A stretch of 47,753 nucleotides of DNA, from positions 1 to 47,753 of the IMG/VR virus record IMGVR_UViG_3300031565_000064; one strand, given 5' to 3'. This DNA is from a virus. The translations under genes and the position numbers were made by a program. Shown piece after piece: positions 13,188 through 44,839 of the stretch; position 1 is the first letter of the stretch; each line of letters opens with the position of its first letter. Under the pieces are notes generated by a model. That model ran no database searches and was not told the DNA's origin. It worked only from the letters and a program-made list of their open reading frames with translations.

Positions 13188-14272
13188 TTATATTGGAAAT
13201 AGAAGGTAAAAGATACGAAAATTTTAAAAGTATAGAAATCCGCAAATCAATGGAAATGGTTAGCGGTGCTTTTACCTTTAATGCTACTAGTAATAATACA
13301 ACCGAATTTCCAATAAAACGCAGTGCATCTGCAAGAGTTTTAATAAATGATATCCCTATCATAACAGGATATGTAAACAGGGTAACTCCTAATTATGATA
13401 ATCAAAGTCATATTTTAATAATAAATGGAAGAGATAAAACTGCTGATATAATAGATAGTTCGTTGCGTTCAAATATTGAATTTAATACAGGCATTACTTT
13501 AAAAAGAATAATTGAAAAGGTAATAGCAGATTTAGGCATAACTGATATTAGTGTTATAGACAATGTGGGTAATATAAAAAAGTTTGATAAGTCGGAATTA
13601 GTTAGTGGCAGTGCTGATAAAAACGCATTTGAATTTATAGAAAATTACTGTAGATTAAGACAAGTTTTATGCACTACAAATGGAGATGGAAATATAGTTT
13701 TAACAAGGGGAAGTAAAGAATTATTACCTATTAAACTTATAAATAGAAAAAATAACCAAACAAATAATATTAAAAATGGCGATAGTTTTTTTGATGAGAT
13801 AGGTAGATTTTATAGAGTTACAGTTTTATCACAAGGTAATCCTAGTGCATTTGACGATACAAACATAGTAAGTAAAAGTGGTATTGCATTTGATACTGAA
13901 ATACGCAAAAGCAGAAGTCAAACAATAATTTCAGAACATTCTAGTAGTGATTTTACAAACAAAGAGAGAGCCACTTGGCAAGTAAATGTAAATAGAGCAA
14001 GGGGAACAGGCTATGCTTGTTTAGTTGAGGGATTTAAGATAGCACCTGATAAAACAGAAATTTGGCAACCTAATAAATTAGTAAAAGTAGAAGACGAATT
14101 TGCAAACATTAACTCTCAAATGCTTATTAGAGAATGTGTTTACAGATTATCAAATGATGTTGGTAGTGAGACACTTTTAACTTTAGTGCCAAAAGATGCT
14201 TATCAAGTAGAAGCACAATTAAACGAAGTTGAGGCTAGGGCAAATTTAACAGGGAAAGATTTAACACAATGA
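13184..14272 (+). CDS. Baseplate hub protein (Mu gpP/gp44-like)
   Basis: 362 residues. The order of strands and the segment SARVLINDIPIITGYVNRV followed by INGRDKTADIIDSSL and KRIIEKVIADLGI are characteristic of gpP-type hub proteins, which form the ring holding the central spike. A later WQPNKLVKVEDEFANI segment also fits. ATGA overlap with the upstream gpN-like gene and the downstream spike gene indicates one translational unit. Confidence 0.87.
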   Translation: MIILEIEGKRYENFKSIEIRKSMEMVSGAFTFNATSNNTTEFPIKRSASARVLINDIPIITGYVNRVTPNYDNQSHILIINGRDKTADIIDSSLRSNIEFNTGITLKRIIEKVIADLGITDISVIDNVGNIKKFDKSELVSGSADKNAFEFIENYCRLRQVLCTTNGDGNIVLTRGSKELLPIKLINRKNNQTNNIKNGDSFFDEIGRFYRVTVLSQGNPSAFDDTNIVSKSGIAFDTEIRKSRSQTIISEHSSSDFTNKERATWQVNVNRARGTGYACLVEGFKIAPDKTEIWQPNKLVKVEDEFANINSQMLIRECVYRLSNDVGSETLLTLVPKDAYQVEAQLNEVEARANLTGKDLTQ

Positions 14273-17118
14273 GTAAATTAGACAATATAATTAAATGGGC
14301 TGAAGTTACTTTGCCCGATAATGATAAGGATAATTTTTCAAGGTCTCAAGTTAAATCTATAGGGCAAAATCCTAAACAAATTACAAATATATTACCTTAT
14401 GGTTTTATATCAAGAGCACCTGTTGGAACAACGGCTCTTTTATTTAATGTTAATGGCAATGAAGAAAAAACTGTTGGTATTCCTATTAGCTCAAATAATA
14501 GAAAGAAAGCGGAACTTACAGAGGTTGGAATTGAAAATCCAGTTTCTAAAAATTATGTTTTATGTAGAGAAACTGGAGTTACTGAATTAAATGGAAGTGA
14601 TTATGAGGGTATAATAAAAATAGAAGATTTGACTGGTAAATTAAATGATTTAATAACCGAATTTGATACTCATACTCATAGCGGAGTTCAAACAGGTGGT
14701 GGCGTTAGTGGCGTTCCTGTAACCCCTGCAACTGCTTTTAATAAATCAGATTATGAAAATGAAAGTGTTAAACACGGATTTACAAGTGTTGCAAGCACAC
14801 CAAGCGGTAGCGGTAACGGAATTTTAAATTTAAATGGATTAACCGCACAAGTTCAATCATTTGCAGTAGGGATAGTAGGAAGTGATTTTAATATTTCAAG
14901 TTCGGTAAGTACTCATACCTTTAATTTACCGACTGCTAGTGCGGTAAACAGAGGAGCGTTGAGTTCTGCTGACTGGACTACTTTCAATAATAAACTTTCA
15001 AATATTAGCGGACAAGACCATAGTACTTTAATTAATTTAGATTTTGCAAGTGCGGGGCATACTGGATTTGAAAAGGCATTAACTTTTTCTACGGGACTAA
15101 CCCGCACAGGCGATACAATAACAACAGATGACACTCAAATAGTTCATAACAATTTAAGTGGTAAACAAGGTGGAGTAGCAGGACAATATTTTCATTTAAC
15201 AAACGCACAACATACTATCGCAACACAGCAGGCTACTACAAGTCAAGACGGCTATTTACTATCAAGCGATTGGAATATTTTTAATAATAAACTATCTGTA
15301 GAAACAGACCCTATATTTACCGCATCGCCTGCATTTGGAATTACAAGCGGAGATATAACAAACTGGGACACTGCATATGGGTGGGGAGACCATTCTACTG
15401 AAGGATATTTAAAAAACATAGTAGAAGATACAACCCCTCAACTTGGCGGTGATTTAGATACAAACTCAAACGACATTAAATTTTTAGATAATGATAAAGC
15501 AATATTTGGAACTGGTTTAGATTTTGAAATTTACCACGATGGAAATGATACTATTTTTAGGAATTTACTACAGGATAAGGACACAGTTTTTAATGTTAAT
15601 TTAGGTGGCGTTGATACGGAAGCGGTGAGGGTATCAGGTAGTAATGGTTATTTTGGAATAGGAACTTCGGACCCACAACAACAATTACATCTAGCCAAAG
15701 AAGGTGCTAATGGTGGTATTTGGTTTCAAGTTCACAGCAACACAGGCACAAATCACGGTATATTTAATTTTAATAGGGCAAGGGGAACACTAGCATCACC
15801 AACAGCAGTACAAAGTGGAGACAATCTAGGAAGTTTTAGATTTAACGGACACGACGGAACTGCAATAGGGGCAGGTTCTCAAATTATTGGGAGAGCATCA
15901 GAAAATTGGTCAGTGGGAAATCACGGGTCAGATTTAAATTTCTTTACAGTGGCAAATGGGGCTACTACAACAACACAACGAATGATTATAGGAAATGACG
16001 GAATTTTAAATTTATTAGAAAATCCTATAGATAATGTTGGCAATATAACTCACGATGATGCAACTGCAAGTGATTGGATATTTAGAAATTCAAATTTAGA
16101 TAAATTTACTAGATTTTTTGGTAATGACGGGGGATTAGATACAGAATTATTAACACTTGATTATGCTAACCGTAGTATAGGAATAAATCAGCCAAATCCT
16201 ACTAAAAAACTGCATATAACTGATGCAGTTACAGCAAATTCAGTCTGGGAACGAACAGGTGGAACTATATTTACACTCACAGCAGGTTCACTTTATGGAT
16301 TTATTGGAACACAGACAGATAACCAGTGTCGCTTATTAGTTAATGATACCCCTGTAATGAGATTAGGAGTTTCAACAAATAATTACAATATCTCTGTGGG
16401 TAATTTTGACGCAGATGAAAAATTACAAGTAGATGGAAATATATCACTAAAAGATGATAACTACAAAGCAATTTTTGGAACAGGCAAAGATGGAGAGATT
16501 TTTGTAGATAGTAATGATGACTTTAATATTAAAAATGTAACACAAGATAAAGATATTATTTTTAATGTTAATTACAGTGGCGTTGATACTAAAAGATTTC
16601 AATTATTTGGAGATGATACTTCTCAAGCAGTTACTATTTTTGGAAATGGTTTAAAAATACAAGGCGGTGCATTTACTTGGATAGACGAAGCAAGCGGAGC
16701 TAATGCGCGAGGTGAAGTATATTCAGATAGTGCTACTCAAAACGCAGGTTTTTTATTTATTAAAGGCAGGGGAACAGAGGCTAGCCCAGCTGCAATTCAA
16801 AGTGGAGATTTAATTTCTAGACATTCATTTTCAGGATACTATGACGGTTCAAACAGATTTACCGCATTACGAACAGAATATGAAGCAACTGAAAACTGGA
16901 GTAGTGGAAATAATGGTGCTAAAATGTCTTTCTTTACTACACAAAATGGAACTAGCATATTAAAAAATAATTTAACAATAGAAAATGATGGCGGTGTTTT
17001 TATGCATACTCTAAAATCAGGAGCTACGGCAGCAGGAGCTGGAGCTTCAAGTAAAGAGTTATGGATAACTAGTGGACACGCTACATTACCTGACGGAGTT
17101 TTAAATATAGCACCTTAA
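14269..17118 (+). CDS. Baseplate spike (Mu gp45-like) fused to a long fibre
   Basis: 949 residues, about five times the length of Mu gp45. Residues 1-150 match the gp45/gpV spike family, including PYGFISRAPVGTTALLFNVNG and the His pair DTHTHSG (135, 137), which in Mu and P2 binds the tip metal. The rest is fibre-like: ADWTTFNNKLS and SDWNIFNNKLS repeats, then two long related blocks (AIFGTGLDFEIYHDGND near 405 and AIFGTGKDGEIFVDSND near 755), each leading to QDKD-FNVN-GVDT. It ends without a recognised intramolecular chaperone. It sits in the spike position of a Mu-type operon. Confidence 0.75.
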   Translation: MSKLDNIIKWAEVTLPDNDKDNFSRSQVKSIGQNPKQITNILPYGFISRAPVGTTALLFNVNGNEEKTVGIPISSNNRKKAELTEVGIENPVSKNYVLCRETGVTELNGSDYEGIIKIEDLTGKLNDLITEFDTHTHSGVQTGGGVSGVPVTPATAFNKSDYENESVKHGFTSVASTPSGSGNGILNLNGLTAQVQSFAVGIVGSDFNISSSVSTHTFNLPTASAVNRGALSSADWTTFNNKLSNISGQDHSTLINLDFASAGHTGFEKALTFSTGLTRTGDTITTDDTQIVHNNLSGKQGGVAGQYFHLTNAQHTIATQQATTSQDGYLLSSDWNIFNNKLSVETDPIFTASPAFGITSGDITNWDTAYGWGDHSTEGYLKNIVEDTTPQLGGDLDTNSNDIKFLDNDKAIFGTGLDFEIYHDGNDTIFRNLLQDKDTVFNVNLGGVDTEAVRVSGSNGYFGIGTSDPQQQLHLAKEGANGGIWFQVHSNTGTNHGIFNFNRARGTLASPTAVQSGDNLGSFRFNGHDGTAIGAGSQIIGRASENWSVGNHGSDLNFFTVANGATTTTQRMIIGNDGILNLLENPIDNVGNITHDDATASDWIFRNSNLDKFTRFFGNDGGLDTELLTLDYANRSIGINQPNPTKKLHITDAVTANSVWERTGGTIFTLTAGSLYGFIGTQTDNQCRLLVNDTPVMRLGVSTNNYNISVGNFDADEKLQVDGNISLKDDNYKAIFGTGKDGEIFVDSNDDFNIKNVTQDKDIIFNVNYSGVDTKRFQLFGDDTSQAVTIFGNGLKIQGGAFTWIDEASGANARGEVYSDSATQNAGFLFIKGRGTEASPAAIQSGDLISRHSFSGYYDGSNRFTALRTEYEATENWSSGNNGAKMSFFTTQNGTSILKNNLTIENDGGVFMHTLKSGATAAGAGASSKELWITSGHATLPDGVLNIAP

Positions 17119-36917: not shown

Positions 36918-36978
36918 TTCTCTCTAGGCGGTTTCAGAAACCCCCTGCTCTATTACTAAACAGGGTTAGGGCAGGGGG
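36910..36978 (+). terminator. Two hairpins before the tRNA-like cluster
   Basis: CCGCCTA/TAGGCGG (36910-36916, 36925-36931), overlapping the stop codon and followed by TTTCAG, and CCCCCTGC/GCAGGGGG (36941-36948, 36971-36978). The first could terminate; the second lacks a T run and may be a processing hairpin. Confidence 0.5.
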
Positions 36979-37005
36979 ATAAAACAAAAGTTCTTTTAAA
37001 AATTT

Positions 37006-37079
37006 GGGAGTGATATAACTCTCGTCTTTTCAAGGCGACAGTTATATTTAGCAAGGTTAAAATCCTTGCCACTCCCGCA
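37006..37079 (+). ncRNA. tRNA-like element without D-arm (Glu-type anticodon loop)
   Basis: Acceptor-like stem GGGAGTG (37006-37012) with CACTCCC (37070-37076). A long hairpin follows directly: ATATAACT (37013-37020) with AGTTATAT (37040-37047), a C/C mismatch, then TCGTC/GGCGA around the loop TTTTCAA, whose middle triplet is UUC as in tRNA-Glu. T-arm-like hairpin GCAAGG-TTAAAAT-CCTTGC (37051-37069). The D-arm is missing and the T-stem has 6 bp, so it is not a normal tRNA. It ends GCA, not CCA. The stems are seen; any function is unknown. Confidence 0.6.
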
Positions 37080-37084
37080 TATTT

Positions 37085-37286
37085 GGCAGGGTGGCGGAAT
37101 AGGTAGACGCGGGAGTATGGTTAGCGTTTCAGACCGACAAGGGAAGAACCCGAAAGATGCTAACAGTGTGCTTGAAAAACACACTCGGTTAAACGACACT
37201 ATTTGAAATAATTTTTTCAGATTATTTTAAAAAAATGTTTTTTAATTACTATGTTATGTAGGGTGCAAATCCCTGCCCCTGCCACA
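37085..37286 (+). ncRNA. Leu-type tRNA-like RNA with a giant central region
   Basis: Starts as a textbook tRNA-Leu 5' half: GGCAGGG TG GCGGAATAGGTAGACGC (acceptor plus D-arm, 37085-37110). A matching acceptor strand CCCTGCC (37277-37283) is preceded by a T-arm-like hairpin GTAGGG-TGCAAAT-CCCTGC and followed by ACA. Between them are 147 bases in place of the usual 40 or so, with stems GTTAGC/GCTAAC (33-base loop) and AGTGTG/CACACT. The usual anticodon arm is not visible, so this is either a degenerate gene, an intron-bearing tRNA or a new structured RNA. Confidence 0.55.
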
Positions 37287-37307
37287 AAATTTCAACAGGA
37301 GGATAAA

Positions 37308-37469
37308 ATGGTAATAGAAGTATATCAAGATGTAAACGGAGCAATTTGTTTTAAGGCAGAAAAGTGCAATATGCAACTGGGAAAAGAACAAAAGAAAATG
37401 GCTATTACTTTAGCTAAAAATTTACATCCTAATATTAATACAGTAACTTTTAAGGATTTTTATTATTAA
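37308..37469 (+). CDS. 53-residue protein between two tRNA 3' halves
   Basis: Starts at ATG 37308 behind CAACAGGAGGATAAA, an excellent ribosome site (an earlier in-frame ATG lies inside the tRNA-like part). IEVYQDVNGAICFKAEKCNMQLGKEQKKMAITLAKNL. Not recognised. The tRNA-like 3' end finishes 21 bases before the ATG; a canonical tRNA 3' half begins 8 bases after the stop. Confidence 0.6.
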   Translation: MVIEVYQDVNGAICFKAEKCNMQLGKEQKKMAITLAKNLHPNINTVTFKDFYY

Positions 37470-37477
37470 TAAGGATT

Positions 37478-37505
37478 GCAGGTTCAAATCCTGCCCCTGC
37501 CACCA
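37478..37505 (+). other. Solitary canonical tRNA 3' half (T-arm, acceptor strand, encoded CCA)
   Basis: GCAGG-TTCAAAT-CCTGC (a perfect 5-bp T-stem with the consensus T-loop), CCCTGCC and ACCA. The acceptor strand pairs perfectly with GGCAGGG at 37085-37091, 390 bases upstream; no other 5' half is nearby. The bases after it (AAATTTCAACAGGAGGAT) also follow the T-arm at 37258-37286, so the two 3' halves and their downstream ribosome sites are duplicates. Confidence 0.65.
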
Positions 37506-37525
37506 AATTTCAACAGGAGGATTTA

Positions 37526-37708
37526 ATGTTTAGAAAAATATTAAGTTGGATTTCAAAGAAAGCATATCTATGTGGCAGAGTAGACGCTTTTACGGAAGTT
37601 TATAATAATCGCAACAAGTGCGGACACTTCATTTCAACATCAGATTTTTGTACACAAGAAATGGAAAAAGATAGTAAGAAAATTTTAAAATTACTTACTA
37701 GAAAATAA
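37526..37708 (+). CDS. 60-residue protein after the second tRNA 3' half
   Basis: Starts 20 bases after the encoded ACCA, behind CAACAGGAGGATTTA. MFRKILSWISKKAYLCGRVDAFTEVYNN with a basic tail (KDSKKILKLLTRK). Unrelated in sequence to the 53-residue gene although the leader is duplicated. Unknown function. Confidence 0.6.
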   Translation: MFRKILSWISKKAYLCGRVDAFTEVYNNRNKCGHFISTSDFCTQEMEKDSKKILKLLTRK

Positions 37709-43345: not shown

Positions 43346-43648
43346 ATGATTAAAAAAATGTGGGTTATAAGAGAAATTGACACAAAGATTTTGAAAGTGA
43401 TGAATAAAAATAAATTTAAGGTTAAAACACTAAGTCATTTGGGTTACAACAAATATATTATTGATAATCATAATAATTATAATATAAAAGACTACGAGCA
43501 AATTCCTGTTTTCGTAACAGACGAAGACCCTTTAATTTTATTAAGGGAATGTCAAAGTAAGATTTCTGTTACAAGCCCACCTACTATAAGAGGGCTTTGC
43601 GAAGCAATAGATAAAACAATCAAAAACTGGGATGATAAAACTAAATGA
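43346..43648 (+). CDS. 100-residue hypothetical protein
   Basis: Basic N-terminal half with KFKVKTLSHLGYNKYIIDNHNN, then VFVTDEDPLILLRECQSKI. The last 25 bases of the gene recur at 44736-44761 as part of a rearranged segment. AAGGTGGTGG site. Confidence 0.55.
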   Translation: MIKKMWVIREIDTKILKVMNKNKFKVKTLSHLGYNKYIIDNHNNYNIKDYEQIPVFVTDEDPLILLRECQSKISVTSPPTIRGLCEAIDKTIKNWDDKTK

Positions 43649-43782
43649 TATTGAAATGCTTAAACGAAAACTGCCAAGAAAGTATAGAAGTGGAGTTAGA
43701 CCAAGATAATTTTATAATTGTTGACTGCCCAAAATGTGATACTGTTATGCAATTCAATGTAGCGGGAGAAATATTGAAATGA
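43645..43782 (+). CDS. 45-residue zinc-ribbon-like protein
   Basis: ILKCLNENCQESIEVEL and VDCPKCDTVMQF give two Cys pairs of a compact ribbon. ATGA coupling on both sides. Confidence 0.55.
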   Translation: MILKCLNENCQESIEVELDQDNFIIVDCPKCDTVMQFNVAGEILK

Positions 43783-43955
43783 CACAAGACCATATGCAGT
43801 CTTTGATAGATTTACTAGATGCAACTAAAATTATGCTAGTTACAGATTTGAAAAAAAACTATGTTACTATTTTAAAAAACATTGCACTTGCAAAAGAATT
43901 ACTAGAAAAATGCAAGGAATTTGAAAAAATAGCAAAGGGGATAGAGATAAAATGA
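43779..43955 (+). CDS. 58-residue helical protein
   Basis: MTQDHMQSLIDLLDATKIM followed by a Lys/Glu/Leu helix. The first 24 bases recur at 44762-44785. Coupled by ATGA. Confidence 0.55.
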   Translation: MTQDHMQSLIDLLDATKIMLVTDLKKNYVTILKNIALAKELLEKCKEFEKIAKGIEIK

Positions 43956-44161: not shown

Positions 44162-44553
44162 CAGAACACGATTTTCAAGTCAATATAGTAAATACTTTAA
44201 AACGAATGAATATCTTTGTTTTTGCAGTGCCGAATAGCCAAAGTTTACTTTCAAAAATACCCTATAAACAAAGATTTTTTCTTATGGCATATCTTAAAAG
44301 AGAAGGACTTATGACTGGTGCTAGCGACCTTGTTGTAGTCAGCAATGGCAAAGTGTACTTCGTTGAGATAAAAACCCCCACAGAGTACAAAATAAGCGAT
44401 AAAACAGGTAAAAAAATAATTGCTAAAGCAGGCGGAGTACAATCAAACGAGCAAAAGCACTTCCAATCAGAAGTAGAGAAAGAGGGGTTGCCATATATTT
44501 TGATTGACAGTCATAAAAAGTTTGAAGAGTTTTTAAGCGAGGTGAAAAAATGA
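44158..44553 (+). CDS. VRR-NUC domain nuclease
   Basis: 131 residues. Catalytic layout TEHDFQVNIVNTLKRM (Glu), GASDLVVVSNGKVYFVEIKTP (Asp and E-x-K), and GGVQSNEQKHFQSEVEKEG (Gln) is that of the VRR-NUC PD-(D/E)XK family, which often acts on branched DNA. It may resolve replication or recombination intermediates. Its last 40 bases recur in the rearranged segment at 44789-44828. Confidence 0.85.
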   Translation: MTEHDFQVNIVNTLKRMNIFVFAVPNSQSLLSKIPYKQRFFLMAYLKREGLMTGASDLVVVSNGKVYFVEIKTPTEYKISDKTGKKIIAKAGGVQSNEQKHFQSEVEKEGLPYILIDSHKKFEEFLSEVKK

Positions 44554-44727: not shown

Positions 44728-44839
44728 ATGGGACTGAAAAAAACTGGGATGATAAAACTAAATGACACAAGACCATATGCATTCTTTGATTGACAGTCAT
44801 AAAAAGTTTGAAGAGTTTTTAAACGAGGGTTGCTTTTAG
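44728..44839 (+). pseudogene. Mosaic remnant of three nearby gene ends
   Basis: The segment repeats, in order, the end of the 100-residue gene (AACTGGGATGATAAAACTAA, from 43627), the start of the 58-residue gene (ATGACACAAGACCATATGCA, from 43779) and the end of VRR-NUC (TTGATTGACAGTCATAAAAA, from 44502). The only coding products are 21 (ATG 44728) and 25 residues (ATG 44762, MTQDHMHSLIDSHKKFEEFL...), so it looks like a rearrangement scar. Confidence 0.7.

Follow-up and report, generated by a model that had tools for sequence, protein, structure and literature searches.

The window analyzed here, 47,753 nucleotides of a phage contig in IMG/VR (IMGVR_UViG_3300031565_000064, to which all window coordinates refer), carries two adjacent tRNA-like elements on the + strand. 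The second of these, element 2 (37085-37286), consists of GGCAGGG, TG, a Leu-type D-arm, an insert of 147 nt, a 6-bp T-arm and CCCTGCC, and it folds with z = -3.7. Its closing, acceptor-like stem comprises 8 bp, formed by the 5' strand TGGCAGGG (37084-37091) and the 3' strand CCCTGCCA (37277-37284), after which there is no CCA. Enclosed by this stem are TG with the D-arm GCGGAATAGGTAGACGC (37092-37110); the hypervariable structured insert, with predicted hairpins, in place of the anticodon arm and variable region (37111-37257); and the T-arm, with its 6-bp stem and TGCAAAT loop (37258-37276). An earlier, sequence-only reading of this DNA had correctly recognized a tRNA-like frame here, with acceptor, D and T parts, and had counted 147 bases after a Leu-type D-arm where an anticodon arm should be, a count that is exact.

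Immediately upstream lies element 1 (37006-37079), a Glu-like structure that lacks a D-arm. It is composed of the acceptor-like 5' strand GGGAGTG (37006-37012) of a 7-bp stem, an extended 35-nt hairpin (37013-37047) with UUC at the anticodon positions of a 7-nt TTTTCAA loop, and a 6-bp T-arm with the loop TTAAAAT followed by the acceptor-like 3' strand CACTCCC (37051-37076). The fold agrees exactly with the anatomy first described from the letters, and T-stems of 6 bp, claimed for both elements, were found in both on folding. The minimum free energy of element 1 is -34.6 kcal/mol (z = -8.4 against dinucleotide shuffles), so a chance fold is very unlikely. A 6-bp T-stem and a 13-bp stacked acceptor/T domain are features that element 1 has in common with the RNA class described below; it lacks a D-arm, however, and, in keeping with this, its T-loop lacks C56. 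A pattern search for D-armless Glu-like relatives returned 0 contigs, and a structural scan of about 2 Mb of loci found no element of this plan besides the one in the window. For this single copy, a decoy presenting a UUC anticodon would be a guess. Just upstream of element 1, at 36941-36980, there is a G+C-rich hairpin, CCCCCTGC...GCAGGGGG, whose outer stem is kept in the close relative G001 while the top of the stem and the loop differ.

Downstream of element 2 is a remnant of a canonical tRNA 3' half (37478-37505, + strand), with a 5-bp T-stem, TTCAAAT loop, CCCTGCC, A and CCA; immediately after it comes the ribosome-binding site for an ORF at 37526-37708. The tRNA remnant belongs to a 52-nt direct repeat of 85% identity (37272-37323 and 37490-37541) that duplicates the tRNA 3' half together with the ribosome-binding site following it. 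The second copy has the fully canonical tRNA end. A small ORF of 53 amino acids (37308-37469, + strand) is carried along with the extra tRNA 3' half.

Over 31 kb, the window shares 99.2% identity with G001 (IMGVR_UViG_3300031539_000042; 54,138 bases with a 127-base terminal repeat). Queries with the MTase, Cas4 and two small ORFs found it to be the sole close relative with the locus, and BLAST of the region against phages gave short tRNA-like matches only. At the same locus, G001 has a closing stem, D-arm and T-arm identical to those of the window, but its insert is 92 nt long and wholly different: the local alignment score of the two inserts is 13, against a shuffled mean of 15.2, that is, no likeness beyond that of shuffled sequence. 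The sequence features of the class are kept in the G001 element, whose unconstrained alternative minimum free energy fold breaks the D-arm. Element 1 is entirely absent from G001, the 53-codon ORF is missing at this place, and a single copy of the repeat is found there, its one tRNA 3' half immediately preceding the downstream ORF. Alignment of the two contigs also revealed near-identical repeats of 27-44 nt at window positions 43622-43648, 43777-43810, 44499-44542 and 44760-44828. In the window, a large tail-fiber-like ORF (14269-17118) contains an internal 134-nt repeat of 72% identity (15487-15617 and 16456-16589).

Element 2 proved to be one member of a large and apparently undescribed class of phage RNAs. 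The common plan is a closing stem of 7-11 bp, a TG-GCGGAATAGGTAGACGC Leu-type D-arm, an insert of 18-219 nt, a 6-bp T-stem and a TGCAAAT loop, and element 2 has every defining feature, including a closing stem that covaries in the family. A single insert value of 306 nt, from LP65, lies outside this range and represents two adjacent elements read as one. The family was recovered by two independent patterns. The first, GGCGGAATNGGTAGACGC-N75-105-GTGCAAATCCC, matched 46 viral contigs; the second, a T-arm-only pattern that required neither closing stem nor D-arm, matched at least 119 viral contigs and 52 genome contigs. In 150 of 178 unique T-arm matches, among the matches listed, an upstream strand pairs with the 3' closing strand and is followed by TG and the Leu-type D-arm. 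In Lactobacillaceae genomes the real T-loop was found in 6 of 301, and a control T-loop altered at a single base in 0 of 301. When TTCAAAT was substituted for TGCAAAT at the same spacing, 5 contigs matched as against 46, and by inspection at least 4 of the 5 are also members; G at position 55 is therefore usual, not an absolute rule. Since sampling relied on exact patterns, these prevalences are lower bounds, and the invariance of the D-arm and T-loop in the pattern-selected relatives is partly by construction.

Altogether, members occur in more than 100 IMG/VR contigs, in many isolated Lactobacillus phages and in dozens of bacterial genome contigs, with the proviso that genome bins can hold foreign phage contigs. 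In the isolated phages the elements carry no annotation. The tRNA cluster of LP65 (locus L083, 40000-60000) has three unannotated minus-strand elements, one overlapping annotated ORF 80 and another with a normal TTCGAAT T-loop. The statement that no RNA of this plan has been described stands against Rfam 15 and the searchable open-access papers, where no description of such an RNA was found; that coverage did not extend to bioRxiv as a whole or to most papers behind subscriptions.

The members of the class are not tRNAs, having no anticodon arm above chance, almost never an encoded CCA and no ARAGORN call. An anticodon arm (5 bp with a 7-nt loop) follows the D-arm in 1 of 112 inserts among the matches listed, compared with a mean of 2.6 in shuffled sequence. 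An NCCA end is encoded in 1 of 74 scaffolds among the matches listed, although CCA could be added after transcription. ARAGORN reported no tRNA in the window and none in 134 elements among the matches listed, tmRNA mode (-m) included. The window gave 0 matches to Rfam 15 above the gathering threshold (RF00005 was not matched), and a relaxed search of the region found no tRNA match at E values up to 5. For the other loci searched, Rfam matched ordinary tRNAs elsewhere in the locus only; there was no match to tmRNA (RF00023 and relatives), and no Rfam ribozyme or riboswitch was found in the elements or inserts searched. The dimensions of the frame are also distinctive. Among the matches listed, the closing helix often exceeds 7 bp, with an 8th pair in 46 of 74 scaffolds and a 9th in 31 of 74, and the T-stem is 6 bp in nearly all members, in contrast to the 5-bp T-stem with TTC-type loop of tRNAs. 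The sequence-only reading had called the ends of element 2 a perfect Leu acceptor; the acceptor-like stem is present, but the label is misleading because the sequence of the closing stem varies freely across the family, the matches listed containing 76 different closing 7-mers (and 134 different inserts). The features of a tRNA elbow, GG in the D-loop and C56 in the T-loop, are both found in most members, as the GGTAG D-loop and the TGCAAAT loop; some members have altered D-loops. One subclass has a large insertion in the D-loop, GGAATAGACA ... TGGTAAAG ... hairpin ... CAATAGTAGACGC, besides the usual hypervariable insert (loci L087, L096, L116, L118, L123, L126, L138, L172, L207, L212, L217 and L233).

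Covariation was scored in 29 distinct scaffolds selected by D-arm and T-loop only, pairing not being a criterion. Double compensatory changes were seen at 8 of the 9 pairs in the closing stem and at 3 of the 6 in the T-stem, with 132 compensatory cells compared with 41 in shuffles, and the covariation score was 0.576, against 0.149 for shuffled sequences and 0.06-0.13 for slid structures. In the T-arm-selected set the D-stem covaries as well (GCG/CGC, GTG/CAC, ATG/CAT, CTG/CAG, TTG/CAA and ACG/CGT). Compensatory changes, which the sequence-only reading had proposed as support for a functional RNA, are found in the closing stem, T-stem and D-stem. In an aligned trio of loci (A3), conservation spans the element from one closing strand to the other, and the DNA on either side is unrelated. 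Selection acts on the chassis as RNA.

The inserts are recurring modules that are found on different scaffolds. For example, one 160-nt module is carried on an ATCGCTG scaffold in a Lacticaseibacillus songhuajiangensis genome and on a GTGCTTG scaffold in the L. plantarum phages LP65, 8014-B2, Bacchae and Lpa804, its helices kept by compensation, as in GTAGATG/CATCTAC to GTAAATAG/CTATTTAC. The converse, the same scaffold with other inserts, is seen in Lacticaseibacillus phage R29.1 and others. Among about 105 pairs of elements with both flanks homologous, the inserts are unrelated in 77, near-identical in 27 and intermediate in 1 (two same-contig pairs having been removed from 79 of 107). This bimodal likeness between homologous flanks indicates exchange of whole cassettes, not drift. 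Taken together, inserts have no more than a modest folding advantage over shuffled sequence (mean z -0.33, P = 0.003); because the average barely exceeds that of shuffles, the evidence for insert structure is mainly the compensatory change within modules. The cassettes have structure, form recurrent families and move between chassis as complete units. At L037, L059, L114, L125 and L132 the inserts have in common a module inside which a T-arm-like hairpin, GGGTTCGATTCCC, is nested, resembling a second tRNA-like piece inside the first.

The genes next to the elements are phage genes of many kinds, among them late activators, terminase, helicase, ligase, exonuclease, ParB/methyltransferase, endolysin and anti-repressor, and no constant partner gene was found among the neighbors of the loci examined. 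This variety of neighbors suggests a stand-alone factor acting in trans. We favor, with a probability of roughly 0.6, a reading of element 2 as a phage-borne non-decoding RNA, a natural 'tRNA scaffold' in which an effector cassette acting in trans is mounted on a tRNA-elbow chassis. The closing helix, Leu-type D-arm and 6-bp T-arm would make up this chassis, with the folded cassette at the place of the anticodon arm. The RNA would presumably be transcribed together with the adjacent phage genes; the chassis would provide a compact, nuclease-resistant fold and may recruit factors that handle tRNA, and the cassette would act in trans on a host factor. The step we hold least firmly is the nature of the targets: the likeliest may be host anti-phage or takeover factors, because the cassettes diversify as an arms-race locus does. 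Counter-defense would be the most natural reason for the turnover of cassettes, a weak inference. The analysis found no defense partner or target, and the arms-race function is read from the pattern of variation. The wider proposal, that the class as a whole is a widespread set of phage effector RNAs on a tRNA-elbow platform, each cassette a distinct folded RNA effector against a host factor and exchanged, much as specificity cassettes are, among unrelated phages, we consider evenly poised.

The active part could instead be the tRNA-like frame itself, acting in place of tRNA or as a decoy to soak up defense nucleases that target tRNA, or enzymes that handle it, while the insert would do no more than replace the vulnerable anticodon. 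Phage-encoded tRNAs are known to counter tRNA-targeting defenses, those that cleave tRNA included (PMC10264068, PMC11555353), and they resemble the present class in their phage tRNA clusters, fast evolution and plausible counter-defense role. Among the matches listed, 31% of elements have a tRNA gene no more than 1 kb away, as against 10% for positions drawn at random from these loci, and element 1 has a perfect UUC anticodon loop. However, those phage tRNAs decode, whereas the relatives of element 2 lack an anticodon arm and carry large cassettes, and a passive filler has no need of large, structured, recurrent inserts that are exchanged whole. We consider this account unlikely. Somewhat less probable still is an antisense or guide RNA, in which the insert would pair with transcripts of the host or the phage and the chassis would act as a stabilizer. 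Extreme variability of inserts on a constant chassis would fit target-specific guides, but within insert families compensation keeps the stems and not the linear sequence, and a k-mer search found no seed or motif common to all inserts.

All-or-none exchange of cassettes, and the HNH genes close to some loci, might also be expected of a recombination or homing hot spot at the DNA level, where the conserved D-arm and T-arm would be mere crossover sites in former tRNA genes. We find this improbable, as covariation of the closing stem, D-stem and T-stem is not required of a DNA site, and the insert modules covary too. Decaying or intron-bearing tRNA genes, for which the Leu type of the D-arm and the true tRNA 3' half downstream of element 2 could be cited, are very improbable given compensatory changes across very diverse phages, the 6-bp T-stem, the want of anticodon arm and CCA, and no exon-like anticodon halves; for element 2, whose homologs retain their stems through compensation, the suggestion of decay is refuted. 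A mutually exclusive switch between elements 1 and 2 deserves practically no credence: the perfect 8-nt complementarity noted between 37071-37078 and 37109-37116 is real, but 28 of 200 shuffles (14%) do as well, and G001 keeps the element 2 scaffold in the absence of both element 1 and the window's insert.

Regarded as a non-decoding scaffold, the class is by analogy the natural equivalent of an engineered system, the 'tRNA scaffold' of Ponchon and Dardel for recombinant RNA, in which acceptor stem, D-arm and T-arm are kept and a foreign folded RNA is placed at the anticodon stem-loop (PMC3753655). The class differs in being natural and phage-encoded, and in its Leu-type D-arm, its closing stem free in sequence and length, its 6-bp T-stem, its G55 T-loop and its lack of CCA. 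Such a scaffold, whose folded cassettes can be swapped, is common in Firmicutes phages and present in unannotated gaps of well-known Lactobacillus phages; it provides a searchable signature and many ready-made RNA modules, along with non-pathogenic, genetically workable hosts for studying them. The class may account for some of the 'pseudo-tRNA' and of the empty stretches in the tRNA clusters of phages, and the proposed function, if true, would add a layer to phage-host conflict that is run by RNA instead of protein.

In tmRNA, too, a tRNA-like end domain (acceptor and T-arm with a reduced D region) closes a large folded insert, but members of the class have no CCA, a full Leu-type D-arm and a variable insert, and receive no tmRNA call from ARAGORN or Rfam. 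The tRNA-like structures of plant viruses are viral RNAs that mimic parts of tRNA; they terminate genomic RNAs and are aminoacylated, whereas the present class is a closed RNA without CCA encoded by DNA phages. T4 species 1 RNA (rnaC) may be a distant analog, as a stable phage RNA in a tRNA cluster with no assigned function and a T-arm-like hairpin at its end, but its loop is the canonical TTCGAAT and it has no GCGGAATAGGTAGACGC D-arm. In rnaC (locus L082, 1409-1547; 70908-71046) the terminal hairpin, CCGGG-TTCGAAT-CCCGG, is a perfect T-arm-like structure.
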